DNA of 37,239 bases, from assembly GCA_027489895.1 (NCBI GenBank), contig JAIXZD010000327.1, positions 1 through 37,239 on the forward strand, written 5' to 3'. This document shows, piece after piece, positions 2,289-33,797 of the stretch. Both the position numbers and the translations under genes were made by a program. Under the pieces are notes generated by a model that saw nothing but the letters and a program-made list of their open reading frames with translations, had not been told where the DNA came from and made no database searches. This stretch comes from Planctomycetaceae bacterium. GTDB taxonomy: Bacteria > Planctomycetota > Planctomycetia > Planctomycetales > Planctomycetaceae. The first letter of the stretch is position 1. Every line of letters starts with the position of its first letter.

Positions 2289-3392
2289 ATGTCCACTCCC
2301 GTCCGCTACGCCATCATCGGTGCCGGTGCCGTCTCCGATTACCACCACGTCCCCGGGATCAAGCTCGATTCTCGCGCCAAACTCGTCGCCTACTGCGACC
2401 CCAACGAGGCCCTCCTCCAGAAGCGGCTCTCCGACTGGGGCCCCGCCAAAATCACCACCAAATTCGAAGAGATCGCCGCCGATCCCGACATCGACGCCGT
2501 CGTCATCGCTACCCCCAACGACAGCCATCGCCCCATCGCCCTCGCCTGCGTTCGCGCCGGCAAGCATGTCATGTGCGAAAAACCGCTGGGCCTCAACTTC
2601 TCCGAAGCCCGCGAGATGTTCCTCGAAGCGAAGCGGAACAACGTCCGCCACATGACCGCCTTCACCTACCGCTTCGCCCCCTCGATGCGCTACCTCCGGC
2701 ATCTCGTCTACTCCGGCGCACTCGGAGTGCCCCGTCACTTCCGCAGCCAGCGCTTCCTCGACTGGCCCGAAACCAGTTGGGGCTGGCGACAGCTCAAGGC
2801 CCGCGCCGGCGCTGGTGACCTGTTCGACATGACGATCCACCGCATCGACTACGGCCTCGACCTCATGGGCGACATCACCGCCCTCACCGGAGCCGTCGCC
2901 CAGTACTGCCCCCGCGACAAATTCCCCGATGGCAGCCCCTCCCCCAAAAGCGAGGTCGACGACTGGTCCGCCCTCATCTGCCTCTTCTCCCGCGGCGGAG
3001 TCGGCGTCCTCGAAGGCACCACCGTCGCCAAGGGCTACCACTTTGAAGGCTTCGGACACGACTGGGCCGAGATCAACGGCAGCGAAGGTTCCGCCGTCTA
3101 CCAGCTCAAGGAACCCAACACGATCCTCCTCGGCAAGCAGGGCCAATCCCTGCAGAAGGTCGAAGTGCCCAAGGAATTCCTCGTCTGGCCCGGCAGCCCG
3201 CGCGATCCCTCTCAAGGCGTCCCCAGCACGGTCTTCCGCTACGACCTCGTCTACGAACTGACCAGCGCCATCGTCGAAGGCCGCGACGCCACGCCCGGTT
3301 TCGACGCCGGGGCCAAGTCTCAGGCCGTCGCCGATGCGGTCCTCGAATCGTTCGAGAAGCGCACCTGGGTCACCCCCCAAATGACCATGTAG
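2289..3392 (+). CDS. Gfo/Idh/MocA family NAD(P)-dependent oxidoreductase (cytosolic)
   Basis: A 367-residue protein with the two-domain layout of this family: an N-terminal Rossmann fold ([13 protein letters not shown], about residues 8-20; acidic strand end YCDP at 35-38) and a C-terminal alpha/beta dimerisation/substrate domain. The signature EKP is at 97-99 and the conserved His/Asp pair lies in [13 protein letters not shown] (His184, Asp187). Such enzymes oxidise or reduce sugars, inositols or their derivatives with NAD(P); the substrate cannot be read from sequence. No signal peptide is present, unlike the second family member at 34157-35443. The ATG at 2289 gives a natural start just before the Rossmann strand. 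It stands alone between repeat-bearing spacers. Confidence 0.85.
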
Positions 3393-3431
3393 CCCGTTGA
3401 TCCTGCCCACCTGCGGGCGACTGTCGTGATC

Positions 3432-3468
3432 GTGGGAGCCGGAAGCGTTCGCGCCCGGAGGACGAGCG
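3432..3468 (+). repeat. Dispersed repeat, family F (copy 1)
   Basis: The sequence gtgggagccggaagcgttcg plus cgcccggagg belongs to the GGGAGCCGGAAGCGTTAGCGCCCGGAGG-like family seen again at 27511-27541 and 29156-29189 (reverse) and 33967-33992 (forward). It is partly self-complementary. It lies in the 164-base gap between the oxidoreductase and the helicase. Confidence 0.6.
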
Positions 3469-3556
3469 ATTCCCGCTCGCCACCCACTCCAGACACAATC
3501 AACAACGACAGTCGCCGCAGACAGCGTGCCTTCAGACTCTCGCAGGACACCTCTCG

Positions 3557-19735: not shown

Positions 19736-20290
19736 ATGGCGTTGTTTCAGTGGGGACAGGGCTGGGAGCCATTTGGCGACCTGGAGCGGCACGTCGAGCA
19801 GATGCTGGCGACGATGCGTCAGTCTTTGCCCACGCTGCGCGTCCAGCGGGCCTATCCACCGCTCAATCTGGCGGAACTGGAGCAGGAGTACCTGCTGACG
19901 GCCAAGGTGCCGGGGATGTCGCCGGCGCAACTGGACCTGACAGTGAGCGAGGGGATGCTCACGCTGCGGGGGGAACGGGGTCGTCCGGAGGGAGTTCGGG
20001 ACGACGAGTTCCGCCGCCACGAGCGATACTGGGGCCGCTGGGAGCGGTCGGTCGCGCTGCCGGAACGAGTCGTCTTGGACCGGATCAGTGCGGAAGTAAG
20101 CGACGGGCTGCTGGTGGTGCATTTGCCGAAGGCGATTGAAGGTCGGGCGCGGCAGATTGTGATCTCGACGGGAGAACCGCTCGGGGACGAGTCGCGAACG
20201 TTGTCGGCGGCATTGGCCGCTGTGGAGTCGGACGCTGGTGGACTGGCGACGGGTCGAGCGACGTTCGGCGCGGGAGGCGTGGAATCATGA
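19736..20290 (+). CDS. Small heat-shock protein (Hsp20/alpha-crystallin), first of three
   Basis: A 184-residue sHsp, an ATP-independent holdase that keeps unfolding proteins soluble. The alpha-crystallin domain spans about 42-131: PPLNLAELEQEYLLTAKVPG, then LDLTVSEGMLTLRGER, an RWERSVALPE strand, and the signature VSDGLLVVHLPK (121-132), which is the A.x.x.nGvL motif. A short IVI (141-143) after the domain fits the C-terminal IxI that docks in oligomers, followed by an unusually long tail of about 40 residues. The stop overlaps the next sHsp start by four bases (ATGA), so the first two are coupled. Genes of this sort are normally heat- or envelope-stress induced; the region upstream carries an operator-like site. 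Confidence 0.9.
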   Translation: MALFQWGQGWEPFGDLERHVEQMLATMRQSLPTLRVQRAYPPLNLAELEQEYLLTAKVPGMSPAQLDLTVSEGMLTLRGERGRPEGVRDDEFRRHERYWGRWERSVALPERVVLDRISAEVSDGLLVVHLPKAIEGRARQIVISTGEPLGDESRTLSAALAAVESDAGGLATGRATFGAGGVES

Positions 20291-20775
20291 CGCAGTGGCC
20301 TTCCGACGATGCTGTGACTCCCGCGGCCACGCCACTTGGTGGCTCGGAGGGTGTGGTGCCGGGCGATTCGGCGGGGCGGGCGGAACCGGTTCCCGTGCGG
20401 TCGATTCCGGCCTCAGGCGAGGCACCGCCCCCGCCTCTGTCTCGCTCGGCCGTGATGCCGCCGATCGACATCTACGAGACGGACGAAGGTCTCGTGCTGA
20501 TTGCCGATCTGCCGGGCGTGTCTCCGCCCACGCTGGAACTGCAGGTCCAGGACAACCGGCTGACGCTCTTGGGGCGGGTCGAGAAGTATCCGGGGGAAGA
20601 GGGCCTGCTGCGGCATGAGGAGTTCGAACAGGCCGACTATCTGAGGTCGTTCATTCTGTCGGAGGAAGTCGACCACGAGCGGATCAGTGCGAAGCTGGTG
20701 AATGGCGTGCTGGAGGTACGGCTGCCGCGGATGCCGAAAGCACCGCCCCGACGGATTCAGGTGACGGCCCAGTAG
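20287..20775 (+). CDS. Small heat-shock protein (Hsp20/alpha-crystallin), second of three
   Basis: A 162-residue sHsp that begins within the last codon of the previous gene (ATGA overlap). The first 55 residues are Pro/Gly/Ala-rich and likely disordered; the alpha-crystallin domain runs about 58-148 with MPPIDIYETDEGLVLIADLP, LELQVQDNRLTLLGR, YLRSFILSEEVD and the signature LVNGVLEVRLPR (137-148). The C-terminus has IQV (157-159), a candidate IxI anchor. Sequence is clearly different from its neighbours, so this is not a recent duplication. Coupling with the first gene suggests co-assembly of hetero-oligomers, as in bacteria with paired sHsps; this is inferred. Confidence 0.9.
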   Translation: MTQWPSDDAVTPAATPLGGSEGVVPGDSAGRAEPVPVRSIPASGEAPPPPLSRSAVMPPIDIYETDEGLVLIADLPGVSPPTLELQVQDNRLTLLGRVEKYPGEEGLLRHEEFEQADYLRSFILSEEVDHERISAKLVNGVLEVRLPRMPKAPPRRIQVTAQ

Positions 20776-20807
20776 AGCTGTGGGATTGTTCGCGAGGCGG
20801 CGGAGGT

Positions 20808-20884
20808 GTAGCGGAAGCCGTGAGGCTTCCCCGTGGTGGCTTCCCTGGTGGCAACGTCTTGGGAAGCCTCACGGCTTCCGCTAC
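20808..20884. repeat. Inverted pair of family B hairpin repeats
   Basis: gtagcggaagccgtgaggct (20808 onward) and its reverse copy gggaagcctcacggcttccg (20861 onward, ending ctac at 20884) face each other across about 28 bases. Each copy folds alone, and the two can pair with each other over about 24 bases. The structure lies between the second and third sHsp genes and could attenuate or stabilise the message there. Confidence 0.75.
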
Positions 20885-20969
20885 CACCTGCTCTTGGCGG
20901 CGCGTATCGGGCAGGACGAACGGCGGGATGTGGGGTTGAGGCGCGAGACCTTTTTCAAGGGAGACCGAC

Positions 20970-21425
20970 ATGACCGAGTCCAGCAGTTCGCCGATTGACC
21001 GGTTGCGGGGCGAGTTGAATCGGGTGGTGGACGCCGTGCGGTTGCAGGGCGAGAAGGCGCTCGATGCGCTGAATCTCAATCCGATGCGGGGTCCGTGGCA
21101 TCCCGCGGTCGACATTCTGGAGAAGACCGATCAGGTGCAGGTGGTGGTTGACCTGCCGGGCGTTGACCCGACGACGGTCGAGGTGCTGCTCGTCGCGAAC
21201 ATGCTGACGATTCGCGGCAGCCGGGCGGTGGGGGCAAGCCAGGGGACGGAAGTACGGGCGGAGCGTCCCGCGGGCTCGTTCGAGCGGGCGATTCCGCTGC
21301 CCTCGGCCGTGGAATCGGATGAAGTCGACGCCCAGGCGAAATGGGGCGTGCTGACGATCACGCTGCAGAAGCGGAAAGAGTCGCCACCGCTGAGCGTGCG
21401 GGTGGCGGTGCAGAACCGGGAGTGA
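20970..21425 (+). CDS. Small heat-shock protein (Hsp20/alpha-crystallin), third of three
   Basis: A 151-residue sHsp. After a short amphipathic N-terminal helix (LRGELNRVVDAVRLQGEKAL), the alpha-crystallin domain spans about 43-133: WHPAVDILEKTDQVQVVVDL, TVEVLLVANMLTIRGSR, SFERAIPLPSAVE and the signature AKWGVLTITLQK (123-134), in which Trp-Gly replaces the usual Asn-Gly. VRV and VAV near the end (143-147) could serve as the IxI anchor. The ATG has GGGAG 7 bases upstream. It is separated from the second sHsp by 194 bases containing an inverted pair of hairpin repeats, so it may be read through or have its own promoter. The three sHsps are diverged. Confidence 0.88.
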   Translation: MTESSSSPIDRLRGELNRVVDAVRLQGEKALDALNLNPMRGPWHPAVDILEKTDQVQVVVDLPGVDPTTVEVLLVANMLTIRGSRAVGASQGTEVRAERPAGSFERAIPLPSAVESDEVDAQAKWGVLTITLQKRKESPPLSVRVAVQNRE

Positions 21426-21437
21426 GTGGTTTTGGGG

Positions 21438-21506
21438 AACCACCAAGGCACGAAGGCACCAAGGAGAGGCAGGTTAAGGCAGGCGAGCAGACCCAGTGAG
21501 GGGCGG
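21438..21506 (+). repeat. Family A repeat fused to family C repeat
   Basis: aaccaccaaggcacgaaggc then accaaggagaggcaggttaa is family A; it runs directly into ggcgagcagacccagtgagg, a decayed family C copy. It lies between the convergent third sHsp gene and the pspA-like gene. Confidence 0.65.
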
Positions 21507-21578
21507 TGGGAGTTGGCACCAGGTGATTTTTGCTGGGTGGTGCTGACGGGGGATTGAGATCTGAAGTTGGGCGTCTTT

Positions 21579-21601
21579 GGAACGCTCACGCGTTCCGCTA
21601 C
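21579..21601 (-). repeat. Family B hairpin repeat (reverse)
   Basis: ggaacgctcacgcgttccgc then tac: GGAACGC pairs with GCGTTCC around TCAC. It sits 34 bases beyond the 3' end of the minus-strand pspA-like gene. Confidence 0.7.
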
Positions 21602-21634
21602 GGATTTACGCCACCGGGATTTCGAACGCTCGCG

Positions 21635-22186
21635 TTAGCTGAGTTGTTGTTTCAGGGCGGCGAGTTCGGCTTCGATTTCGTCGCGTTTGCTGCTGTCGAC
21701 GGCGTGCCAGGGGTCGGTCGCGATGTGCTGTTCGGCGAGGAGAATGTCGGGCGTAGCGCGACCGGCGGCGATTTCATCGCGAAGACGGATCGCTTCGGCG
21801 TAGCGGGCTTCGATCGCGCGCAGCACGGTCTGCAGGTGGTCGCGGGTTTTGAGGGCCGCGGCGAGCTGCTGCTTCAGCCCGGCGGTGAGGTCGGTCAGTT
21901 CGCGTTTGCGGAGGAGGGCGAGGCGGGCCTGGTCTTCGCTGCCGGCCGCGAGCGCGGTTTTGGCGCGGGCGCCCCAGGTTTCGATCTCGGTGTGGTTGGC
22001 CGCGAGATCGGCTTCGAGACGGGTGAGCTGCAGGCTGGCGGCGGTGGCGCTGCGGCGTGCCCCGGCGACGCCCTGCTCGACCTCGCCCACGATGGCCTGG
22101 ATCGTTTCGAAGCGGTTGTCTGTTTCATGCAGGAGCGAAGAGAGGCTGCAGGAAATGATGTCGCTGAGGCGAGAGAAGTAGGGCAT
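21635..22186 (-). CDS. PspA/IM30-family coiled-coil protein
   Basis: A 183-residue protein that is nearly all helix after the start. The N-terminus MPYFSRLSDIISCSLSSLLH is the amphipathic helix a typical of PspA/IM30/Vipp1, which binds stressed inner membrane; the long heptad-rich hairpin follows, including ARLALLRKRELTDL, equivalent to the conserved 'AR.ALLRK.EL' patch. It is shorter than E. coli PspA (about 222 residues), lacking some of the later helices. The family protects membrane integrity by forming rod- or ring-like polymers related to ESCRT-III. Its position next to three sHsps and downstream of an ECF sigma factor fits an envelope/protein stress role, which is inferred. Confidence 0.75.
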   Translation of the reverse strand: MPYFSRLSDIISCSLSSLLHETDNRFETIQAIVGEVEQGVAGARRSATAASLQLTRLEADLAANHTEIETWGARAKTALAAGSEDQARLALLRKRELTDLTAGLKQQLAAALKTRDHLQTVLRAIEARYAEAIRLRDEIAAGRATPDILLAEQHIATDPWHAVDSSKRDEIEAELAALKQQLS

Positions 22187-22239
22187 GGGGTCTCAGGTCG
22201 GCGAAAGGGGGCCGGGGGATTGGAGGATGTGGGCTAGGT

Positions 22240-22308
22240 CGGTTGAAGCCGGGGACGAGCGGGATGGTGGTTGCGGGCTGGTGAGCAGTGGTGGGCAGTG
22301 CCCAACCT
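22240..22308 (+). repeat. Dispersed palindromic repeat, family E (copy 2)
   Basis: ggttgaagccggggacgagc through gtggtgggcagtgcccaacc is collinear with 26566-26637 and with the reverse complement of 251-300. The palindromic core TGGGCAGTGCCCA is intact; the outermost arm bases have decayed. Confidence 0.7.
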
Positions 22309-22327
22309 GGTGCTCTATCCATCGATT

Positions 22328-22450
22328 GGTGTCAGGTCGCGTCAGAACGGAGCAAGTCAAAAGTCAAAAGGAAAAAGTCAAAAGTGATGGTGTCGGGCAG
22401 GCCCGACCTGTTTTTTGCATGACTTGGATCGACAGACGGACGACCGCGCC
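22328..22450 (+). repeat. Long composite family D repeat (copy at 22.3 kb)
   Basis: The stretch tggtgtcaggtcgcgtcaga, tandem gtcaaaagg-type units, gtgatggtgtcgggcaggcc, and ttggatcgacagacggacga is collinear over about 120 bases with 25789-25910, differing by scattered substitutions and small indels. A shorter version lies at 13216. It contains a terminator-like hairpin. No terminal repeats or target duplications were seen. Confidence 0.75.
22392..22416 (+). terminator. Terminator-like hairpin carried by the family D repeat
   Basis: GTCGGG (22392-22397) and CCCGAC (22402-22407) form a perfect 6-base stem with a 4-base loop, followed by CTG and six Ts (22411-22416). It is oriented for the + strand although both neighbours are minus-strand genes, so it probably blocks antisense transcription or is simply part of the repeat. 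The second copy (25853-25878) has one stem mismatch and an interrupted T-run. Confidence 0.45.
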
Positions 22451-22535
22451 TGCGGAGTGAGTCGCGCTGTAGCGGGGGAACGCTGGTTGGGGGCTGTCGG
22501 TTCATGGAAAATGGGTGTTGGAGCGGATGTCGAGG

Positions 22536-23135
22536 TCAGTCGTCGTGGTGGTTTTCGGGGAGAGCGCCCTGGATTCCGAGGTCGGCGAGTCGCTCGCGGA
22601 GCTTTTCGCGGGCGAGCCTCAGGCGGCTTTTGGTGGTCGAGGTGCTGGTTTCGAGCACATGGGCCACTTCGGGCAGCGGCATCTCGGAGAAATGATGCAG
22701 GGTGAAGGTGAGCCGTTGCTCCTCGGGCAGTTCCGCGAGCAGCTTGTCGACGATGCGGGACAGTTCGTGTTGATCGGCTTCGTCTTCGGGAGATTCGACG
22801 CCGGAGACAACCGAGGCGAGCGGGTCGTCGTCTTCACTGTCAGGCCCCACGGCGCGGATCAGGGCGTCGCGCCGCTGGCGACGGATCGTGTCGATGAGGT
22901 GATTGCGGGCGAGGCGAAACAGCCACCCGCGAAACCGGCCGGAGGGGAGGTAATCCCACGCCTGGTCGTAGACTTTGAGCAGCGTATCCTGGGTGAGATC
23001 TTCGGCGAGCTGGCGGTCGCGGGTGTTGGCGTAGAAGAAGCCGAACAGCGCTCCCTGGTAACGCTGAACAAGGGCGTTGAAGGCCCAGGTCTGCATTTCC
23101 TGGACCTTGACCATCAGCTCGTCGTCGTCAATCAT
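22536..23135 (-). CDS. ECF-type RNA polymerase sigma-70 family factor
   Basis: From the ATG at 23135 the product is 199 residues, the usual ECF length. Sigma region 2 spans about 18-88 (AFNALVQRYQGALFGFFYAN, DLTQDTLLKVY at 46-56, FRGWLFRLARNHLIDTIRRQ) and region 4 about 125-182 (LLAELPEEQRLTFTLHHFSE, PLPEVAHVLETSTSTTKSRL, RLAREKLRERL). Region 3 is absent, as expected. A TTG at 23237 in the same frame would add 34 residues of low-complexity sequence; neither start has a clear Shine-Dalgarno, so the N-terminus is uncertain. No anti-sigma gene with a zinc-binding or membrane anti-sigma domain is adjacent. The pspA-like gene follows on the same strand and is a natural candidate target. Confidence 0.9.
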   Translation of the reverse strand: MIDDDELMVKVQEMQTWAFNALVQRYQGALFGFFYANTRDRQLAEDLTQDTLLKVYDQAWDYLPSGRFRGWLFRLARNHLIDTIRRQRRDALIRAVGPDSEDDDPLASVVSGVESPEDEADQHELSRIVDKLLAELPEEQRLTFTLHHFSEMPLPEVAHVLETSTSTTKSRLRLAREKLRERLADLGIQGALPENHHDD

Positions 23136-23592
23136 TCGATCGTCGCCAGACGGATCGGCGGAGGGGTTGGTCGACTGTTTGACCAGCGGACTGACCGGTG
23201 TCGCTCTGTCGGGCGGCGAGATCAAGCGAACACTCAAACCAAGAGGTGGGTGGGCGGAAGCGGTTGGCAGGGGAGTGAGTGCGAGGAGAACTGGGGCCGG
23301 TTCAGGTGCTCCAGGCTCGGAAGGTTTGACCGATTCTCACCTGAAGCACTCAATTTATCCGGCAACCGGCAGCCCGAACAGTGCGCGGATGTGGTGCAGT
23401 CGGGGTCTGATGCGGTAAGACGGTGCCAGAAGTCTGATGTGTCAGGACGGTGTGGTGTCCGGGCGGTGTGATTTCAGAATGGTGTTGCTTCCGGAATGTG
23501 GGGCGACGATGACCCGAAGTGTGTGGCGAAACAGGTGACCGGAACGTCCGTGGCTGCGGTCCTTCCGGGGTCTCAAGCGGTGGACGAACGGC
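23136..23592. other. 457-base divergent intergenic region between ECF sigma and LarA-like genes
   Basis: The part next to the sigma gene may encode an N-terminal extension (up to 23237). A degenerate array with 16-base period lies at 23448-23505. No clear -35/-10 pair was found for either gene. Confidence 0.45.
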
Positions 23593-24861
23593 ATGACCGA
23601 GCGGGTGCGACTGGTATACGGGACTCAGGGCCTGTTTGAGATGGACTGTCCGCGCGAGCGGCTGGCCCTGCTGCAGTCTGCCCCGGCCCCGTGCCAGAAT
23701 CTGGCGGAACAACTGCTCGACCGGCTGCAGATGCCGCTGGAACTGCCGCCTCTGGTCCATTTCTTCACGCCGGGCGACCGGGCGGTGTTTGCACTCGACC
23801 GCCATACCCCCGAAGCGGCCACACTGATTGCCACGCTCTGGAATTCGCTGGCTCCTTCGGGACTCCAGCCCTCGGACCTCGTCATTCTGCAACCGGCAGG
23901 GCTGGATGGCCGTCCGCAGGCCGACCCACGCACGCAACTGCCGGAAGACATCCGTTCGCAGATCGTCTGGAAGACACATGATGCGACCGACGAGACGGCC
24001 CGGGCCTATCTCGCCTCGAGTTCGCGTGGGGACCGCATTTACCTCGCGCGGGAACTCGTCGAATCGGATGTGGTCGTGTCGATTGGCACGATCGCGTATG
24101 ACGCGGTGATCGGCTATCGCGGCACGTCGAGCGTGTTTTACCCCAGCCTGTCGTCGGTCGAGGCGATTCAGAAGCTGCATGGACAGGGGCATAGCGAACT
24201 GGGTCCCGAAGATGATCGGCCGCTGCGGCAGGAGATGGACGAGGTTGCCTGGCTGCTGGGCAACATGTTCACGGTGCAGGTGATTCCATCGCGTTCGAAG
24301 GGCGTCGTCGAGGTGCTGGCGGGGGCGAGCGATGCGGTGCTGACGCATGGCAAGGAGCTGCTGGCCCAGGAATGGCGGGTGTCGCTCGATCGGCGGGTGC
24401 CGCTGGTCGTGGTGGCGATCGAAGAAGACGACGCGGGTCATGGGTGGGCGCAGGTGGGGGCGGCGCTGGAGACGGCGCGGAACCTGGTGACGAAGGGCGG
24501 CCGGATCGTCGTGCTGACGGAACTGACGGCCCCGCTGACGCCTGGTCTCGACCTGCTAAGGGCCTCGCGCGATGCGCGGAGCGCGCTGCAGCCGCTGCGG
24601 AAGCGGCAGCCGCCCGACATGGTCTCGGCGATTCAGATTGCGCAGGCGGCGGACTGGGCACGGGTGTCGCTCTTGAGTCGGCTCGATCCGTCGATCGCCG
24701 AGGAGCTGTTTCTGTTTTCGCTGGAATCCGAACGGGAGGTGGTGCGGCTGCTGGAAGATGGCGGACCGTGTGCGTTCATTGAATCGGCCCAGCATACGTA
24801 TGGTGAGATCGTGGCGCGGGAACGTCGGCGGGCCGGGACGGGGGCGAATCGCGAGTCGTAG
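23593..24861 (+). CDS. LarA-like (lactate racemase domain) protein lacking the nickel-cofactor lysine
   Basis: A 422-residue protein with the overall pattern of the LarA/DUF2088 family: VFALDRHTPEAATLIATL (65-82), LQPSDLVILQPAG (91-103), a KTHDATDE segment, ELVESDVVVSIGTI (154-167), then HGQGHSELGPEDDRPLRQEM and EVAWLLGNMFTVQVI. In true LarA, the stretch after the 'IG..epH' motif is GFSGGxK, whose lysine carries the nickel-pincer cofactor. Here it reads GYRGTSS (174-180), with no lysine; the preceding His (EPH) is Tyr-Asp (AYD), and the earlier active-site His of the GLHR type is absent (GLDGR). Lar maturation genes (larB, larC, larE) are not nearby. The protein probably keeps the fold but not nickel-dependent racemase chemistry. 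No strong Shine-Dalgarno is visible. Confidence 0.75.
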   Translation: MTERVRLVYGTQGLFEMDCPRERLALLQSAPAPCQNLAEQLLDRLQMPLELPPLVHFFTPGDRAVFALDRHTPEAATLIATLWNSLAPSGLQPSDLVILQPAGLDGRPQADPRTQLPEDIRSQIVWKTHDATDETARAYLASSSRGDRIYLARELVESDVVVSIGTIAYDAVIGYRGTSSVFYPSLSSVEAIQKLHGQGHSELGPEDDRPLRQEMDEVAWLLGNMFTVQVIPSRSKGVVEVLAGASDAVLTHGKELLAQEWRVSLDRRVPLVVVAIEEDDAGHGWAQVGAALETARNLVTKGGRIVVLTELTAPLTPGLDLLRASRDARSALQPLRKRQPPDMVSAIQIAQAADWARVSLLSRLDPSIAEELFLFSLESEREVVRLLEDGGPCAFIESAQHTYGEIVARERRRAGTGANRES

Positions 24862-24917
24862 CCGGGATGCGTTCTCTTCAGGCGTCCTGTGGAACAATCG
24901 CTCCAGAGTGAAGACCT

Positions 24918-24986
24918 GTGTTCCACTGGCTTTTCCAGTCCGCGTCTTTCGCGAGAGAACTCGCACTGGCAAAGCCAGTGGCACAC
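24918..24986. repeat. Imperfect inverted repeat between LarA-like and pirin genes
   Basis: gtgttccactggcttttcca (24918 onward, to 24939) is matched by the reverse complement of actggcaaagccagtggcac (24965 onward, to 24986) with two mismatches in 22 positions, around a 25-base loop. Each arm also contains its own short palindrome (ACTGGCAAAGCCAGT in the right arm). A strong stem-loop in RNA and a possible 3' end for the LarA-like transcript. Confidence 0.7.
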
Positions 24987-25039
24987 TTGGACTTGTCGTT
25001 CAGAACATCATCAACAGGCTGCCAGAAAGTGATCGCATC

Positions 25040-25771
25040 ATGCTGATTCGCCGTTCCGAGGCTCGGGGTCAGACGCAGATTGACTGGCTGTCGAGCCGGC
25101 ATACGTTCTCGTTTGGCGAGTACTTTGATCGGGCGCATCGGGGGTTCCGGTCGCTGCGGGTGATTAATGATGATCGCGTGGCGGCGGGGCGGGGATTTGG
25201 GGCGCATCCGCATCGGGACATGGAGATCCTGACGTGGGTGCTGTCGGGGCAACTGGCCCATCGCGACAGCCTGGGGACGGGGTCGGTGATTCATCCCAAC
25301 GATCTGCAGCGGATGTCGGCCGGGCGGGGAATCACGCATAGCGAGATGAATCCGTCGCAGGCGCAGCCGGTTCATTTTCTGCAGATCTGGATTGTGCCGG
25401 AGAAGACGGGACTCGCCCCGGAGTACGAGCAGAAATCGTTCGACCCGGCGGACCGCAAGAATGTGTGGCAGGTGCTGGCCACGCATGCCGCCACGCGGGC
25501 GGCGAAGGCACCGCAGGCGGTGGCCGTGCATCAGGATGTGACGCTGTATGCCTCGCACGTGGTGCAGGGACAGACGCAGGCGCTGCCCGTTGTGGCGGCG
25601 GGTCGGGGCGTCTGGCTGCAGGTGGTGTCGGGGCTGGTCGATGTGGCCGGGCATACGCTGCATGAGGGGGACGCGCTGGCGTTCGAGCTGGACGCGGGCC
25701 ACCCGGTGACGGCTCCCCATGAGTTGAGAGCGGAGACCGATGCGGAGCTGCTGCTGTTCGATCTGGCGTAA
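25040..25771 (+). CDS. Pirin family protein
   Basis: A 243-residue bicupin. The N-terminus (SSRHTFSFGEYFD) is the pirin signature and the metal site is complete: His56 and His58 in GFGAHPHRDMEILTWVLSG, His100 and Glu102 in GRGITHSEMN, numbering almost identical to human pirin. Bacterial relatives (YhhW-like) bind iron or other metal, and some have quercetin 2,3-dioxygenase activity; others act as redox-linked regulators. I begin at ATG 25040 because the frame upstream crosses the inverted repeat at 24918-24986 and is not pirin-like. It follows the LarA-like gene by 178 bases; the hairpin between them suggests separate transcripts. Confidence 0.92.
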   Translation: MLIRRSEARGQTQIDWLSSRHTFSFGEYFDRAHRGFRSLRVINDDRVAAGRGFGAHPHRDMEILTWVLSGQLAHRDSLGTGSVIHPNDLQRMSAGRGITHSEMNPSQAQPVHFLQIWIVPEKTGLAPEYEQKSFDPADRKNVWQVLATHAATRAAKAPQAVAVHQDVTLYASHVVQGQTQALPVVAAGRGVWLQVVSGLVDVAGHTLHEGDALAFELDAGHPVTAPHELRAETDAELLLFDLA

Positions 25772-25788
25772 GGCTCCGTTTATCTCCT

Positions 25789-25910
25789 GGTGTCAGGACG
25801 TGGCAGCCCGGAGCAAGGCAAAAGTCAAAAGGCAAAAGTCAAAAGTGATGGTGTCGGGCAGGCGCGACCTGTTCTTTTGGCATAACATGGATCGATAGAC
25901 GGACAAGTAG
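25789..25910 (+). repeat. Long composite family D repeat (copy at 25.8 kb)
   Basis: Collinear with 22328-22450: tggtgtcaggacgtggcagc, tandem gtcaaaaggcaaaa units, gtgatggtgtcgggcaggcg, and atggatcgatagacggacaa. It lies 17 bases after the pirin stop, and its hairpin plus interrupted T-run (25853-25878) could end that transcript. Confidence 0.75.
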
Positions 25911-25987
25911 GCCGGTCAGTCGCTGCGAAAGATGTGTCATCGGGGTGATGGCGCGGGAGTGGTTTTGACGACAGGGCGGTTCGTCCG

Positions 25988-26003
25988 ATGTCGACGAGGA
26001 CAT
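25988..26003. promoter_or_regulatory. Candidate activator-binding palindrome upstream of the sigma-54-type promoter
   Basis: ATGTC (25988-25992) and GACAT (25999-26003) form an inverted repeat around six bases, centred about 55 bases upstream of the -24 element. This is a usual place for an enhancer-binding protein site. Only the symmetry and position support it; chance is not excluded. Confidence 0.3.
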
Positions 26004-26049
26004 GAGGTTTTCTCGGCGTTTTTTGCACAATCTCCCGGATAAAACCATT

Positions 26050-26064
26050 TGGCACAGCGGTTGC
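26050..26064 (+). promoter_or_regulatory. Sigma-54 (-24/-12) promoter candidate
   Basis: TGGCAC (26050-26055) and TTGC (26061-26064) are spaced exactly as in the sigma-54 consensus TGGCACG-N4-TTGCW, with the invariant GG and GC 12 bases apart. Only the seventh base (A for G) and the last (C for A/T) differ. Transcription would start near 26076, giving a leader of about 74 bases before the ATG at 26150. Sigma-54 promoters need an ATP-driven enhancer-binding protein, so tight regulation is predicted. Confidence 0.6.
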
Positions 26065-26149
26065 CTCACTGGTGTGTCAGGTTCGAGAGCCGGAGTGAGC
26101 CGGTGGCCTGCGAACCGTTTGTGGAAATGCCCAACCAGGGAGAGCGAGC

Positions 26150-26479
26150 ATGTCCCGAATCGTGAAGGTGGCGTTGGTGTTGGCAGGGTTTGGTCTGGTG
26201 AGCGTCGGGTCGGCCTCGGCCCACGACCATTGGCGCGGCGGCTATGGGGGCGGCTACGGCCGCGCGTATCATGGCGGCTGGGGCGGCGGCTATTCGGGGG
26301 GGTGGGGAAGCGGGTACGGGGGTGGGTTCAGCGGGCAGCAGTTCTACTACGGTGGCCCGGTCTACCACGACACCAGCCATCTGCACTACTACGGCCCGTC
26401 GTATCAGCGGCATGGAAACCATTTCCACTACGTGCCCCCGCACACCCATATTCACCGCAGCGGCCACTGGCACCGGTAA
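26150..26479 (+). CDS. Small exported Gly/Tyr- and His-rich protein
   Basis: A 109-residue product with a clean signal peptide (MSRIVKVALVLAGFGLVSVG, then SASA) and likely cleavage before His-Asp-His. The mature chain has two parts: a low-complexity GGYGGGYGRAYHGGWGGGY region (about 30-62) and a Tyr/His-rich C-terminus with about 15 histidines, ending HTHIHRSGHWHR. Such composition suggests binding of transition metals or adhesion in the envelope or outside the cell; this is inference, as no family is recognised. GGGAGAG lies 6 bases before the ATG. A sigma-54-type promoter at 26050-26064 is directly upstream, which implies control by an enhancer-binding protein located elsewhere. Confidence 0.75.
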   Translation: MSRIVKVALVLAGFGLVSVGSASAHDHWRGGYGGGYGRAYHGGWGGGYSGGWGSGYGGGFSGQQFYYGGPVYHDTSHLHYYGPSYQRHGNHFHYVPPHTHIHRSGHWHR

Positions 26480-26565
26480 CGCGGTGCGAGGAGTGACGAG
26501 TCACAGGGAACCGCGCTCGAGGGTGGCCAGGCCAAACGGTCTGGTTACCCTTGTGTTTCAGGGTC

Positions 26566-26637
26566 GGTTGAAGCCGGGGGTGTATGGAATGGTGGGTGGG
26601 AGTTGGTGAGCGATGGTGGGCAGTGCCCACCCTACGG
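26566..26637 (+). repeat. Dispersed palindromic repeat, family E (copy 3)
   Basis: ggttgaagccgggggtgtat through cagtgcccaccctacgg is the best-preserved forward copy, with palindrome GGTGGGCAGTGCCCACC. It lies between the convergent His-rich protein gene and the reverse SDR, 15 bases from the SDR stop. Confidence 0.75.
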
Positions 26638-26651
26638 CTGGATAGAGAGCG

Positions 26652-27425
26652 CTACCTGAGGAAGCGGCCGCCGTTGAGGTCGAGGAGGGCGCCGGTCATG
26701 AAGGACGAGGCGTCACTGGCGAGGAACAGAATGCTGCCGCCGATTTCTTCGGCGGTGCTGTTGCGGCCGAGTGGGGTCTGGCGGCGGTAGTCGGCCATTT
26801 TCTCCGGGGTGCTGAACCGCTCGTGGTGCAAGGTCTCGACGACGCCGGGCATGATGCAGTTGGCACGCACCTCGGGGGCCAGTTCGCGGGAGAGCGTTCG
26901 CGTGAAGACGAGCAGGGCGCCCTTGGCGGCCGCGTAGGGTCCGGCCCCGCCCGAGCCGCCCGTCTGCACCGAGAGCGAGAGGTTGTTGATGATGCTCCCG
27001 TGGCCACTCGCGCGGAGGTGAGGAATCGCCGCGCGGGTCACCTCGAACGCCGAATGGAGGTTCACGTCGAACGCCTGCCGCCAGAGTTCGGGGGGGCAGT
27101 TCTCGATGCTGGAGCGGGCGAGGGGTGCCCCGGCGTTGTTGAATAGGATGTCGAGCCGGCCCCAGCGGGCGATGGTTTCGGCGACGAGTCGCGCGCCGGT
27201 GTCTGGCTCGGCGAGGTCGCCCTGAATGACCAGGCCTTCGCCCCCGGCTGAAGTGATTTCGGCCAGCAGGGCGTCGGCGTCGCTCCGGCTGGAGTGGCAG
27301 TGAATGGCGACCCGAGCACCGGCGCGGGAGAGGATTCTCACTCCGGCGGCGCCGATGCCCACGCCACCACCGGTGATGAGGGCGACTCGGCCGGTAAGAT
27401 CAAACGGTGTCTGGGTGTAGGGCAT
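26652..27425 (-). CDS. Short-chain dehydrogenase/reductase (SDR)
   Basis: A 257-residue classical SDR. It has ALITGGGVGIG (15-25), the GDLAEP loop (69-74), FNNAG (95-99), the catalytic serine in INNLSLS (Ser150 or Ser152) and YAAAK (Tyr164, Lys168). The C-terminus, TGALLDLNGGRFLR, is the usual last strand of FabG-like enzymes. It shows only moderate similarity to the SDR at 12458-13201. A hydroxyl at C45-C46 after the HCHSSR stretch could bind the NADP phosphate, which would suggest NADP use; this is tentative. It is transcribed alone, against the His-rich protein gene. Confidence 0.88.
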   Translation of the reverse strand: MPYTQTPFDLTGRVALITGGGVGIGAAGVRILSRAGARVAIHCHSSRSDADALLAEITSAGGEGLVIQGDLAEPDTGARLVAETIARWGRLDILFNNAGAPLARSSIENCPPELWRQAFDVNLHSAFEVTRAAIPHLRASGHGSIINNLSLSVQTGGSGGAGPYAAAKGALLVFTRTLSRELAPEVRANCIMPGVVETLHHERFSTPEKMADYRRQTPLGRNSTAEEIGGSILFLASDASSFMTGALLDLNGGRFLR

Positions 27426-27510
27426 GAGAGGGCGTTGCGAAGAGGTGCGGGAGCGATGCGGGGGACTGGCGGCGGGTGTGACGGTCTCTATGGGATTGGG
27501 ATTCGAGGCG

Positions 27511-27541
27511 CCTCCGGGCGCTGACGCTTCCGGCTCCCACT
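27511..27541 (-). repeat. Dispersed repeat, family F (copy 2)
   Basis: cctccgggcgctgacgcttc then cggctcccact is the reverse complement of the family F element at 3432-3468. It lies upstream of the minus-strand SDR and beyond the 3' end of the next minus-strand gene. Confidence 0.65.
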
Positions 27542-27609
27542 GATCTTGAGCGAAGCGGGCGATGGTGTGCAGTGATCAACCTACGGCTCGGGGCACTCGA
27601 TGATCGTGG

Positions 27610-28371
27610 CTATTCTGGCTCGGCGGGTTTGGGGGTGATGACGATGCCGGCGAGGAAGTCTTCGATCTGCTGCTCGAGCTTCTCGAAGTGCTTCTGCTGG
27701 ACGATCAGAAACACCTGCACCGAGCCGAACGGTCCGCTGGCGTAGTAGCCGCAAAAGATCATCTCGGATTTGCCCAGATGGCCGACGGCGCGCAGGGCGA
27801 TCATCTCCTGGCCGTTGACGATCCGTCGTTCCCGGAGGAGCAGTTCGACATCCTTCAAGCCGCCTTCCATGTTTTCGATCGCGATATCGGCCAGTTCGTC
27901 GAGGCCGAATTCGATGTCTTCGTGAATGATGATGGCCGCGACATCGTTGCCAATCGCCTGAAACTGGACTTCAGCCGATTCGTTGCCTGATTTCGCCAGT
28001 TTTTTCCACTTGCGCGGTTCAAGCCAGAGCGTGAGGGTGCCGAGTTTTCCCTTGTAGGTTTCGACCGCTTTCTCGGGCTTGGTGATCTTCGGGGCGTCTT
28101 CGGGAGCGGTGGTGGGGTCGGCCGCAGCGGGTTTGGTGACGAACTCCCAAGTGCCGTCCTCTTTGAGCACGACTTCGCGCCCATCCCGCGTGCGGGCCTT
28201 CAACTCTTCGGCGCAGACCGATTGAGACTCGGCCGTGATCCAGGTCAGACCGAGAAGCAGCAGCGCGGCGATGCGACTCCTCCCGGTGGGGAAGATACCC
28301 CGAGTGGACTGGACTGGGATTCGGCGGTTGAGCTCTGGGGGACGCGTCGATTGGAGCGAGACGGCGGTCAT
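27610..28371 (-). CDS. Small exported hypothetical protein
   Basis: A 253-residue protein with a long basic n-region and a hydrophobic segment (RIAALLLLGLTWITA, about 33-47) ending in SVCA before Glu-Glu, so a signal peptide with cleavage after residue 54 is likely. The mature start, KARTRDGREVVLKEDGTWEF (58-77), matches a small recurring motif of exported proteins (a 'DGr.V.L..DGtW.f' hairpin). The rest is alpha/beta with a charged C-terminal helix (HFEKLEQQIEDFL) and ends in KPAEPE. The start at ATG 28371 could be later, since the signal-peptide n-region is unusually long. It is divergent from tspO. Function unknown. Confidence 0.7.
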   Translation of the reverse strand: MTAVSLQSTRPPELNRRIPVQSTRGIFPTGRSRIAALLLLGLTWITAESQSVCAEELKARTRDGREVVLKEDGTWEFVTKPAAADPTTAPEDAPKITKPEKAVETYKGKLGTLTLWLEPRKWKKLAKSGNESAEVQFQAIGNDVAAIIIHEDIEFGLDELADIAIENMEGGLKDVELLLRERRIVNGQEMIALRAVGHLGKSEMIFCGYYASGPFGSVQVFLIVQQKHFEKLEQQIEDFLAGIVITPKPAEPE

Positions 28372-28589
28372 GAGCGCGACTCCAGAGGTTGGGGCGAGAT
28401 TGGGCGCTGTGTCACCAAAAGACTACGGGACGTCGTGGTCGACTACAATTGAGGTCGGCGAACGCGGACTGGTTCGGCGAGCGGGTGGGGCAGGGGGCGG
28501 CGGGGGAGTGTGCCGAACCGTCGCCGCAGATTCCTCCGGCTCGACCCTCCTGCAACCAGACGCGGTCACCCAGAGGCAGGAGCGAACCG

Positions 28590-29129
28590 ATGGCCAGTGA
28601 CGAAACGATCTCGGAAGAGGAATCGGTCGATGCGATGCGTGGTGAGTATGGGTCGCTGGCGCGGTCGGGCTGGCGGCTGTTTGTCTGTTTCGGGCTCTGC
28701 TTTGCCGCGGCGGCGTTCGGGGCGAGCTTCCCGCCGGGGGCGTGGTATGCGGAGTTGGTCAAACCACCGTACACGCCACCGAACTGGGTGTTCGCGCCGG
28801 TCTGGACGATGCTGTACATCCTGATCGCGATCGCCGCGTATCGGGTCTGGCAGGCGGCGGGAAGTCTGGGGGCAGGGCGGTCCCAGGCGGTGTGGTTTGT
28901 CGCCCAGCTCGTGCTCAACGCGGCGTGGTCGGCTCTGTTTTTTGGACTGCATCTGAAGGGGCTGGCCCTGGCGGAGATCGTGATCTTGTGGCTGACGATC
29001 GCGACGACGATCGGGCTGTTCGCGAAAAAGTCGTGGAGTGCCGCTGCGCTGCTGTTGCCGTATCTGGCGTGGGTGAGCGTGGCGACGTATCTCAATGCGG
29101 GATTGTGGTGGCTGAACCGGGCGGGGTGA
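28590..29129 (+). CDS. tspO: TspO/MBR (translocator protein) family membrane protein
   Basis: A 179-residue protein with five predicted membrane helices and the Trp/Pro-rich signature of TspO/PBR: GAWYAELVKPPYTPPNWVFA (50-69), PVWTMLYILIAIAAYRVW (70-87), LVLNAAWSALFFGL (107-120) and YLAWVSVATYLNAGLWWLN (158-176). Family members bind tetrapyrroles and sterols; in bacteria they act in porphyrin export or breakdown and in stress signalling. I start at ATG 28590, preceded by AGGAG at a spacing of 8 bases; an earlier in-frame start (28389) adds sequence without membrane-protein character. An N-terminal cytoplasmic extension of about 25 acidic residues precedes the first helix, slightly longer than in the Rhodobacter protein. 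Confidence 0.9.
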   Translation: MASDETISEEESVDAMRGEYGSLARSGWRLFVCFGLCFAAAAFGASFPPGAWYAELVKPPYTPPNWVFAPVWTMLYILIAIAAYRVWQAAGSLGAGRSQAVWFVAQLVLNAAWSALFFGLHLKGLALAEIVILWLTIATTIGLFAKKSWSAAALLLPYLAWVSVATYLNAGLWWLNRAG

Positions 29130-29155
29130 GTTCCGGAGAGGGGAGTGAGTCGGCG

Positions 29156-29189
29156 GGCCCCCGGGCGCTGACGCCTCCGGCTCCCAGAG
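29156..29189 (-). repeat. Dispersed repeat, family F (copy 3)
   Basis: ggcccccgggcgctgacgcc then tccggctcccagag matches the reverse complement of the family F element. It lies 27 bases after the tspO stop. Confidence 0.6.
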
Positions 29190-29396
29190 ACGTCGGGGAG
29201 GCGTGGAGAGAGTCTGGCGCAGGGATCGGATGGGAACGGCCGACCGAATTGCGTCGGTGGAGCGGGTCCACTAGATTCGGGGCGTGTGTGCGGGAGGGCG
29301 GGCTGAGGGCCGCCCCGGTGGCGTTGAGGGCGGAATCCGCCCCAGCCGGTCTCACCCCGACCGGTTCTTCGTGTTGGACTGGATGGCTTCTCGGCG

Positions 29397-31541
<2,145 letters not shown>

Positions 31542-31560
31542 TGCGGTGGGGGCATTGAGT

Positions 31561-31645
31561 GGCGAGCCGACCCTGTGAGGGGTCGCCTGGGGAACGGTCA
31601 CCCGTTCCGCTACCAATACGAGGGAACGATTACCCGTTCCGCTAC
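31561..31645. repeat. Family C repeat followed by two family B hairpins
   Basis: ggcgagccgaccctgtgagg (31561 onward) is family C. Then ggggaacggtcacccgttcc (31589 onward) and gggaacgattacccgttccg (31622 onward) are two reverse family B copies in tandem. The cluster separates the converging debranching-enzyme and PPC-protein genes. Confidence 0.75.
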
Positions 31646-31658
31646 ATCAATGGGGGCG

Positions 31659-33797
31659 TTACTTGGGCTGGACGGTGATGGTGAGCGGGTCGCCGCAGAA
31701 GGCGTGCTTCATCACGAAGTTGATCGAGACGTGAACCATGATCGGCACGAGCTGGTTCTCGACCGGCGGAGCGTCGGCGGCCGCGACAAGCACGATCGAG
31801 CCTTTCGTTTCGCCGGCCGTCAGCAGCGTCTTGCTCTTGGCACTGTCGACTTTCACGCCCTTGGGCAGACTGACCGCGTGCGGCTGCTCCAGGTGCTGGA
31901 AGATGCAGTCGAGCGTGACGTTCCCCTTGTAGTCGTCGGCCCGCACGATCTCGACTTCGATCTTCTGTGATTCGCCTGGCTTGAGCGTCACGGCCGTCTG
32001 GCTCAGCTTGATCGACCGCACATCCATCGGGTCGGCCACGGAGACCGTATGCGGCATGTCGACCGGGTGATGGTGTCGGCCTCCCCCCGGCATGTAGATC
32101 TCCTGCATCGAATAGGCCTCGGCCCGCAACGCGATCGGCTCGCCGCCCATCACCGGTTGGGTCCCCGTCCCCAGCACCTTGATGTTGCCCACTCCGACCG
32201 GCGCATTCGCATCGGCCTTGAAGACAATCAGCCCATCGGTCCCATCGGCCAGAATCTTCCCGCAGGTCGCGGTGACTCCCGGCGGCAAGTTTTCGACCTT
32301 GAGATCGACCGGCCCGGCAAAGCCGTTCTTACGCAGCACCCGCACAAACAGCGGCGACGAGATGCCCGGAGCGAGCAGCGATTTGTCGAGGTCCATCTCC
32401 AGCTCAAAGTATGGCTCGGCCTTTTCGGCGAGGACGAGGTACGAGTGAGCCGCGCTGCCGGCCGAGTGGAGATCGCGCACTTCGAGGAAGAACTTGCCAT
32501 CGGCCGGGGCGACCCAGCCCTCGATCCGCGAGTCGCGAATCGTCTGGCGACGCAGGTAGTAGTCGTCGTTTTCAATGTACGGGCTGCTCTTGTCGGTCAC
32601 GATGCGGACAATCGGGTCCATCGGCGAGCCAATCCGCCGGCAGAGGACATCAAACGTGAAACGGTCGCCCTTCTTGGCCTCGAACGCGAAGAGGTCGACA
32701 TCCATCGGGGCGTCGATCTTGCCGTTGAGGGCTGAGGGAATGGCGAGAGCGGCGGCGGTCATCGGGCTGTTGTTGTCGCCCTCGGCTTCGAGGACCACGG
32801 GGGCCGTGGTGGGAACGATCAGGGCCGAGTTGGTGGCTTGGCCAGCCAGTGCCGGTGAGACGAGCAGAGGTTCGCGGCGCATATCGGCGGGCAACGTCAG
32901 TTTGACCGTTGCGTCCATCGGGATGTTCTTGCCGAGGGCCGTGACGCTCGCTTCGACCCCGGGAGCGACGCTCGCGGGGTAGTAGTGCGTGACGAACGGG
33001 CGGGCACTCATCTCAATCGCGTAGACCCAGTCGACATTTCCCTGGTAGCGGACATCGCGAATGTCCAGGACGTACTCACCGGGCGCGTCAAACGTGTGGA
33101 CCAGCAGTGGGTCGCCGGCGAACACGTTGTCGGCGGTCGCGAGGGTGTTGCCCGTCGCGGTTCGCAACGTGATGATCGGGTCGAGATGGGCCTGCAGGTC
33201 GTGAATGCGGTTTTCCAGGCGCTGTGCCCAGACGTGGAACACGACGGTGGCTGGGGCGTCGAGCTTGAACTTGAAACAGTCGACATCCTCGGCCTTTTCG
33301 ATCGTGCCGCAGTAGGTGGCCGGGAAGGCGATCGCTTCGGCTTTGTCGAGCGTGTTGTTCTCGGCCGCTTCGGCGACGACGGGGTCGCGCACGATGACGA
33401 TCTGACCGATCGTGCTGGCGCCCTGGGGCGTGGCAACGCGGAAATCGCGGACGCCGGGGACCGCATCGGCCGCAGCGGTGAATCGCAGCTTGGCTTTCGG
33501 CACGACCGGCTTGGGCATGCCGGGCTTGATCTCGGGTGGTTTTTCCGGCGGGACGACGTCACCAATCAGCCCTTCTCCCGTGACGAGCACCCGCGACGCA
33601 CCGAGCAGGTTGTAGCGCGCGGTCAGTTCGACTTCGACCGTCTGTCCCGCCTGAACGGCGACGGGCTTGATGCTCATCAGCATCGGGTAGGAGTTCTGCG
33701 TCTGAGCCTGAGCCAACGAGACAAAACCGGTCAGCGCGAGCGCAACCATCCCGGAATGGATCACGGAGAGGGCAAGGCCAGGCGAGGAGCGGTGCAT
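31659..33797 (-). CDS. Exported protein with two PPC (pre-peptidase C-terminal) domains
   Basis: A 712-residue exported protein. The signal peptide ends in SLAQA before QT (about residue 31). An IPT/TIG-like beta domain follows (SIKPVAVQAGQTVEVELTA, 42-60), then the first PPC domain at about 163-262 (GTIEKAEDVDCFKFKLDAPA, YVLDIRDVRYQG) and a second at about 357-465 (GKIDAPMDVDLFAFEAKKGD, FFLEVRDLHSAG). Late in the chain are a His-rich MPGGGRHHHPVDMPH loop and a beta-rich end. PPC domains are beta-sandwich modules usually attached to exported hydrolases; here there is no catalytic domain, so a structural, surface or binding role is likely. GGAG lies 9 bases before the ATG. Planctomycete genomes commonly encode relatives near DUF1501/DUF1549 genes, but those are absent here. 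Confidence 0.82.
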   Translation of the reverse strand: MHRSSPGLALSVIHSGMVALALTGFVSLAQAQTQNSYPMLMSIKPVAVQAGQTVEVELTARYNLLGASRVLVTGEGLIGDVVPPEKPPEIKPGMPKPVVPKAKLRFTAAADAVPGVRDFRVATPQGASTIGQIVIVRDPVVAEAAENNTLDKAEAIAFPATYCGTIEKAEDVDCFKFKLDAPATVVFHVWAQRLENRIHDLQAHLDPIITLRTATGNTLATADNVFAGDPLLVHTFDAPGEYVLDIRDVRYQGNVDWVYAIEMSARPFVTHYYPASVAPGVEASVTALGKNIPMDATVKLTLPADMRREPLLVSPALAGQATNSALIVPTTAPVVLEAEGDNNSPMTAAALAIPSALNGKIDAPMDVDLFAFEAKKGDRFTFDVLCRRIGSPMDPIVRIVTDKSSPYIENDDYYLRRQTIRDSRIEGWVAPADGKFFLEVRDLHSAGSAAHSYLVLAEKAEPYFELEMDLDKSLLAPGISSPLFVRVLRKNGFAGPVDLKVENLPPGVTATCGKILADGTDGLIVFKADANAPVGVGNIKVLGTGTQPVMGGEPIALRAEAYSMQEIYMPGGGRHHHPVDMPHTVSVADPMDVRSIKLSQTAVTLKPGESQKIEVEIVRADDYKGNVTLDCIFQHLEQPHAVSLPKGVKVDSAKSKTLLTAGETKGSIVLVAAADAPPVENQLVPIMVHVSINFVMKHAFCGDPLTITVQPK

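Follow-up and report, generated by a model that had tools for sequence, protein, structure and literature searches.

A putative sigma-54 promoter and a conserved upstream palindrome precede a family of exported glycine-, tyrosine- and histidine-rich proteins of planctomycetes

The gene for a 109 amino acid glycine-, tyrosine- and histidine-rich protein in the window (the whole 37,239 nucleotide stretch of DNA analysed here) belongs, on the grounds of comparative sequence analysis, to a family of secreted proteins which is real, conserved and activator-gated. The reading which we prefer, and which we hold to be somewhat probable, is that of an activator-gated sigma-54 unit exporting a metal-binding, zinc-type envelope protein which is ZraP-like in its manner of action. 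The claim is carried by conservation in relatives, since the promoter match of the window alone is modest evidence: sites with at least 10/12 consensus positions in the region -200 to -40 are found in 2/218 and 5/471 control ORFs, and thus about 1% of control ORFs score equally. The features are collected in Table 1.

Table 1. Features of the sigma-54-type unit in the window and of its product.
Feature	Position	Strand	Basis
Probable activator (enhancer-binding protein) site TGTCATCGGGGTGATGGCGC	25935-25954	+	Palindrome match, score 8.3, -118 from promoter
Second activator-motif match GAGTGGTTTTGACGACAG	25957-25974	+	Highest-scoring 18-base match upstream of this gene, 9.1 at -93
Palindrome of the original prediction, ATGTC-N6-GACAT	25988-26003	.	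Present, shorter spacing than family motif
Sigma-54 promoter element (-24/-12) TGGCACAGCGGTTGCC	26050-26065	+	10/12 consensus positions, conserved in family
Ribosome-binding site AGGGAGAG	26137-26144	+	Precedes ATG 26150
Gene, 109-aa exported Gly/Tyr/His-rich protein	26150-26479	+	ORF
Sec-type signal peptide, residues 1-24 (..SASA)	26150-26221	+	Judged by eye
Conserved C-terminal His module, residues 70-109	26357-26476	+	pLDDT 92-97 per 10-residue block, His conservation
16-bp hairpin after stop codon, possible transcription end	26518-26553	+	RNA fold z -3.0, no long T run

The promoter element of the window has its GG at 26051-26052 and its GC at 26063-26064, separated by ten bases, and corresponds with its flanks to the sigma-54 consensus GG-N10-GC. 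A terminator scan of 25770-26640 called no terminator, the hairpin behind the gene included, and an Rfam search of 20000-32000 gave no match over the gathering score. The source genome (5.9 Mb in 575 contigs, 93% complete) carries rpoN (PF04552, E 2.3e-64) and has 13 strong and five weaker PF00158 matches for enhancer-binding proteins. Perfect sigma-54 consensus sites are three in this genome, and one of them (L002, G000:C282) is followed at about 200 nt by an ORF which by eye reads as GroEL; chaperones are among the other planctomycete sigma-54 targets named in the available part of PMC12316311.

Elsewhere in the window, by eye, three consecutive small ORFs resemble Hsp20 proteins (19736-21425) and an ORF on the minus strand reads as an ECF-type sigma factor (22536-23237). 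Two dispersed repeats, one of 105 nt with 85% identity (22312-22416 and 25773-25877) and one of 72 nt with 82% (22237-22308 and 26562-26633), flank the gene on either side, and a further copy of each is located near 22.3 kb, where the two are adjacent.

For the family as a whole the region -200 to -40 was scanned before 53 distinct genes, the window gene included; start codons of the relatives were assigned by a simple scripted rule and some may be wrong. The best GG-N10-GC site reaches at least 9/12 in 42/53 family genes versus 10/218 control ORFs, while the same threshold is reached by 2.6% of dinucleotide shuffles, by none in the reverse-complement control and by 1/53 in the reversed-sequence control. 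Forty of the 42 sites lie at -130 to -60 from the start. Counted by genus, such a site is present in 20/27 genera, one genus supplying 13 of the 53 genes. Further genes from later loci carry the site in 22/28 cases versus 15/471 control ORFs (Fisher p 2e-23; p-values overstate independence here because some of these genes are close to ones that had been counted before). Two of the later loci were excluded because their upstream sequence was too short. The original prediction of a sigma-54-type promoter with exact spacing, which had been made dependent on the conservation of GG, GC and spacing upstream of orthologues, is therefore upheld: all three are kept before most orthologues and the same pair of promoter and protein recurs in related genomes. 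The good ribosome-binding site claimed before the ORF is likewise present. It is very improbable that the match in the window is a relic or a chance occurrence and that the gene uses another promoter. Such a reading could draw on the control ORFs matching equally well and on the family members devoid of a site, but the element stands at a similar distance before most family genes with a shared palindrome upstream, no second place in the 37 kb window combines palindrome and promoter at the thresholds used, and no sigma-70-type promoter was found in 25770-26640.

The family genes without a site of at least 9 are 11 out of 53, and two of them have another apparent export signal. In these two (L016 in G023 and L041 in G246) the sigma-54 site is absent and the N-terminus resembles by eye a double-glycine leader, not a Sec signal; the same module is apparently exported there by another route.

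The second conserved element is a palindrome upstream of the promoter. A motif search in 36 deduplicated upstream regions, including that of the window, yielded the palindrome TGTCATcatgATGACA with a log-likelihood of 128.7, while six shuffled sets gave at most 29.0; near-duplicates, short regions and sites below 8 had been left out beforehand, as had L074 and L060 by hand. The family-wide form is TGTCATnnnnATGACA, with the core TGTC-N8-GACA. In most cases it is located 90-140 bp upstream of the promoter, and two copies are often recognisable by eye. Some members match it poorly (e.g. L065 and L069). Of the later loci 14/25 reach a palindrome score of at least 7, compared with 1.9% of shuffles and 5.1% of the 471 control upstream regions. 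Its conservation suggests that the palindrome is probably the activator site. A TGTC...GACA palindrome for a sigma-54 activator is also known from GlrR (QseF), where, in the available source text, the halves are ten bases apart (TGTC-N10-GACA) and not eight as in the family. The window has two matches, the second of which includes a clear half-site, TTTTGACGACA, at 25963-25973. The activator site originally proposed at 25988-26003 is a real palindrome (TGTC-N6-GACA at -62), but it is off the conserved activator position, the conserved motif being further upstream (25935-25954 and about 25963-25973). Two further 5+5 inverted repeats are found no more than 25 bp away. The proposed palindrome may be incidental, or else a weak third site. 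Activator control as such gains support from the conserved upstream palindrome.

A loose pattern of palindrome and promoter gave 31 listed matches in 29 out of 297 genomes versus 9 control matches, and the matches listed for the source genome consist of the window alone. A Gimesia-type tandem pattern, searched in 13 g39 genomes and G000, was found in 9/14 genomes, each time at the family gene; it matched one further place and the control pattern likewise had one match, so no second target of the regulon is shown. In 17 stretches of the source genome one other place (L110) was above both thresholds, without an ORF of at least 60 aa close behind.

As to the activator itself, activator trees and recognition helices were compared in 12 genomes, eight of them family-positive (G000, G003, G004, G299, G302, G243, G181 and G011) and four family-negative (G048, G059, G150 and G274), in which incomplete assemblies could hide further activators. 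The clade of L113, to which this comparison pointed at first, was considered as sole activator and dropped: G243 and G181 show neither this clade nor its sister and their family genes carry the palindrome, so that L113 is not the sole candidate. A DNA pattern for the L113 helix GISRVGLYK was found in 29/297 genomes, 17 of which are among the 48 family-positive ones. Each of the eight family-positive genomes has a member of every one of the clades of L104, L105, L106, L107, L108, L110 and L111, and seven have one of the L115 clade, which was not seen in G299 (92% complete). Since all eight candidate clades are also represented in family-negative genomes, the clade profile singles out no activator. 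In loci L004-L013 and L015-L084 no activator was found beside the family gene, and the window has a weak activator match on the minus strand about 17 kb from the gene (26 bits).

Searches of Pfam and NCBIfam with the 109 amino acid protein gave no significant match (best E 0.65 and 0.79, respectively). A single-sequence search matched 8/40 genomes, its own included; the matches in G019 and G037 look like glycine-rich chance matches. With a profile of the C-terminal module the family is found in 48/297 Planctomycetia genomes, including the source genome (one place), and is patchy in its distribution; the four weakest module matches (two in G039, G298:C5 and G224) were left out of the locus set. 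When one genome per species of bacteria and archaea was scanned, 40 loci were obtained, all labelled as planctomycetes; the pattern was strict and does not imply absence elsewhere. These include Gimesia, Rhodopirellula maiorica, Bythopirellula, Aeoliella, Laterigemmans, Mariniblastus and many MAGs. Pfam matches of 43 members are scattered and weak: YxzE in two (best E 4.9e-5), Foot protein 3, WXXGXW and Strep_his_triad in one each, and others. The available part of the literature on planctomycete sigma-54 together with activators, histidine-rich proteins or metal contains no description of the family, and a word search of PMC3162934 returned no mention of planctomycetes. One locus (L144) has two tandem family genes (2572-2940 and 3276-3578), the upstream one being divergent with tandem PGH-type repeats.

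The predicted layout of the product consists of the signal peptide, a glycine- and tyrosine-rich stretch and the C-terminal module. The small exported product of the original prediction is consistent with the 109 residues and the Sec-type signal recognised by eye, where the structure model has a helix (residues 3-17, moderate to low confidence). All 14 histidines of the window protein follow residue 24, and the family chains after residue 25 contain on average 19.5% Gly, 15.8% His, 14.0% Tyr, 0.2% Glu and 0.1% Lys. AlphaFold2, run with 43 rows, models residues 71-109 as six short strands (71-74, 77-81, 84-88, 91-95, 98-102 and 105-108) at the confidence given in Table 1, whereas the stretch before the module is of low confidence and the overall pTM is 0.34. 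The dense histidine cluster noted earlier at the C-terminus proves to be a conserved module: in an alignment of 86 rows from 83 distinct proteins, histidine is kept at module positions 10, 21, 24 and 35 (H77, H88, H91 and H102 of the window protein) in 84, 82, 85 and 84 rows, respectively. HxxHxH is complete in 56/86 rows and HxxHx[HD] in 82/86, the third position of the triad being Asp in 27/86. Given the seven-residue period with two-residue turns, the four histidines would be aligned on one face if the strands pair in order; in such a model the histidine row would have Asp or His beside it, and the tyrosines would be on the other face. Foldseek against the PDB gave no match at E<=0.001, which does not imply a novel fold, the best VIA-align Z was 2.8, and a sequence-profile search of the PDB gave no match. 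By Pfam, profile and fold searches no solved fold or domain family directly supports metal binding. The conserved histidine pattern and the heavy-metal genes near some relatives make metal binding by the protein plausible.

Two known families are similar to the module. Streptococcal Pht proteins (PF04270) have HxxHxH in short three-strand beta units which bind zinc, as described in the available part of PMC3842936. One of the 43 members matches PF04270 at E 0.056 with 13.8 bits, below the cut-off of 27, and in distinction to Pht the third histidine of the family is often Asp and there is no Glu ligand. The WXXGXW repeat (PF12779) has similar PGH(Y/W)-type repeated strands, but the family has His or Tyr where PF12779 has Trp; one member matches at E 0.003, while the other 42, the window protein among them, have no match at E<=1.

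It is possible, but rather unlikely, that the product of the same switch is an extracellular material with a structural or adhesive role (matrix, holdfast or wall coat) which self-assembles via its Gly/Tyr/His-rich segments, with the histidines serving for crosslinking or a pH response and not for the buffering of metal. Mature chains rich in Gly, His and Tyr and almost without Lys or Glu would suit such a material, as would the low confidence of the N-terminal half of the model, and the PEP-CTERM regulon is a precedent for sigma-54-controlled exported proteins (available part of PMC1569441). The strictly kept part is, however, the histidine module and not the Gly/Tyr stretch, and heavy-metal genes are found near some relatives.

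Heavy-metal transport genes are present within flanks of about 10 kb in 5/40 named family loci: a P1B ATPase in L122 and L129, a CusA/CzcA-type pump in L128, L129 and L151, and a CDF transporter in L151 and, by 32% identity, in L130. L128 has in addition a CopZ-type metallochaperone and a MerR-like regulator, the latter scoring below the curated cut-offs. In another, overlapping set of 40 loci there are close pump matches in L074 and L048 and a weak one in L084, and L067 is L129 again. Control loci, being stretches with an activator, rpoN or a sigma-54 site, have one metal match in 108, a weak P-type (p 0.006), and the contrast is smaller per base because the control loci are shorter (522 kb in total vs 585 kb for the 40). 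No metal-transport match is found in the window. Metal is the best lead to the function, not proof of it.

In eight distinct loci (L122, L126, L128, L129, L140, L151, L159 and L055) the family gene is followed, in the same orientation, by a gene for a second exported histidine-rich protein (positions 9530-10471 in L151 and 10339-11157 in L128). When five of these proteins (L122, L128, L129, L140 and L151) were scanned with Pfam, four had no match and one had a GYF_2 domain; most of the length of this second protein falls outside any curated family. A profile of the C-terminal part of about 118 residues matched 12/24 family-positive vs 3/24 family-negative genomes at E<=1e-15 (p 0.011) and 14/24 vs 6/24 at E<=0.001 (p 0.039), both sets of 24 having been chosen from one family; the genome of the window had no match. 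In L126, L128, L129 and L151 a MacB/FtsX-type permease and a thioredoxin-like protein are found a few kb from the family gene; an ABC ATPase accompanies them in L126, L129 and L151 and is not listed for L128. More tentatively, though as a serious possibility, Planctomycetia may have a dedicated sigma-54 metal or envelope response with an activator palindrome of its own, the output of which would be a new class of secreted mini beta-sheet proteins, with a metal-binding histidine face and a tyrosine face, acting as an extracellular metal sponge together with the second histidine-rich exported protein and, in some lineages, with P1B, RND or CDF pumps.

Among known systems the ZraSR/ZraP system of enterobacteria shares with that of the window the sigma-54 promoter, the activator control and the small exported protein, which in ZraP binds zinc (available part of PMC4987338). 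The window protein scores 10 bits with the ZraP model NF008584, whose cut-off is 200, and has a beta module in place of the ZraP domain, so that the best reading by analogy is a protein which may work most like ZraP without being one. According to the same part of PMC4987338 ZraP is a periplasmic chaperone which depends on zinc and is connected with envelope stress. This would favour a chaperone or signal protein of the envelope-stress response under sigma-54 control, in which the metal site has no more than a structural role and the inducing signal is misfolding or wall damage, not metal. This we consider improbable, as no chaperone domain was found by Pfam and NCBIfam and the chain is very small and of low complexity. 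The arrangement also resembles the PEP-CTERM/PrsK-PrsR regulon (Haft et al. 2006, PMC1569441), which in the available part of that paper comprises exported proteins, mostly of single-gene operons, in front of which an activator motif is followed, after a spacer, by a -24/-12 element some 70 nt from the start. Motif 1 of that regulon ends in TTTACA and is reported only for Proteobacteria, while the palindrome here is TGTCATnnnnATGACA. The window protein has no Pfam or NCBIfam match to a PEP-CTERM sorting signal and ends in the histidine module. Ten of the 13 activators of the source genome were compared with NCBIfam; among the best 25 matches listed for each no model reaches its cut-off, and that of TIGR02915 (PrsR-type, 502.6 bits) is reached by none of the ten.

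In the preferred reading, that of a metal-binding envelope protein, the window would hold a single-gene unit driven in vivo by sigma-54 RNA polymerase. An enhancer-binding protein would recognise TGTCAT-N4-ATGACA-like sites about 80-120 bp upstream (25935-25974) and remodel the holoenzyme waiting at 26050-26065, thereby switching on the Sec-exported Gly/Tyr/His-rich protein. The C-terminal module of about 40 residues is predicted to fold as a small beta-sheet of seven-residue units of strand and turn, with the four conserved histidines in one row if the strands pair in order, and would bind a divalent metal, which is most likely of the zinc type, either in the periplasm or on the cell surface, where it may buffer or trap the metal during metal or envelope stress. 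The manner of action would be like that of ZraP or of the Pht histidine-triad proteins, with no detected relationship to either.

For planctomycetes these data outline a specific and testable regulon, in which a conserved promoter is combined with an activator palindrome and with a family for which no curated model was found; the conserved candidate clades form a short list in which to look for its activator. Metal binding by the module, if real, would make it a small metal-binding fold of unusual His/Tyr design, of use in the study of metal stress and perhaps as a compact tag for capturing metal.
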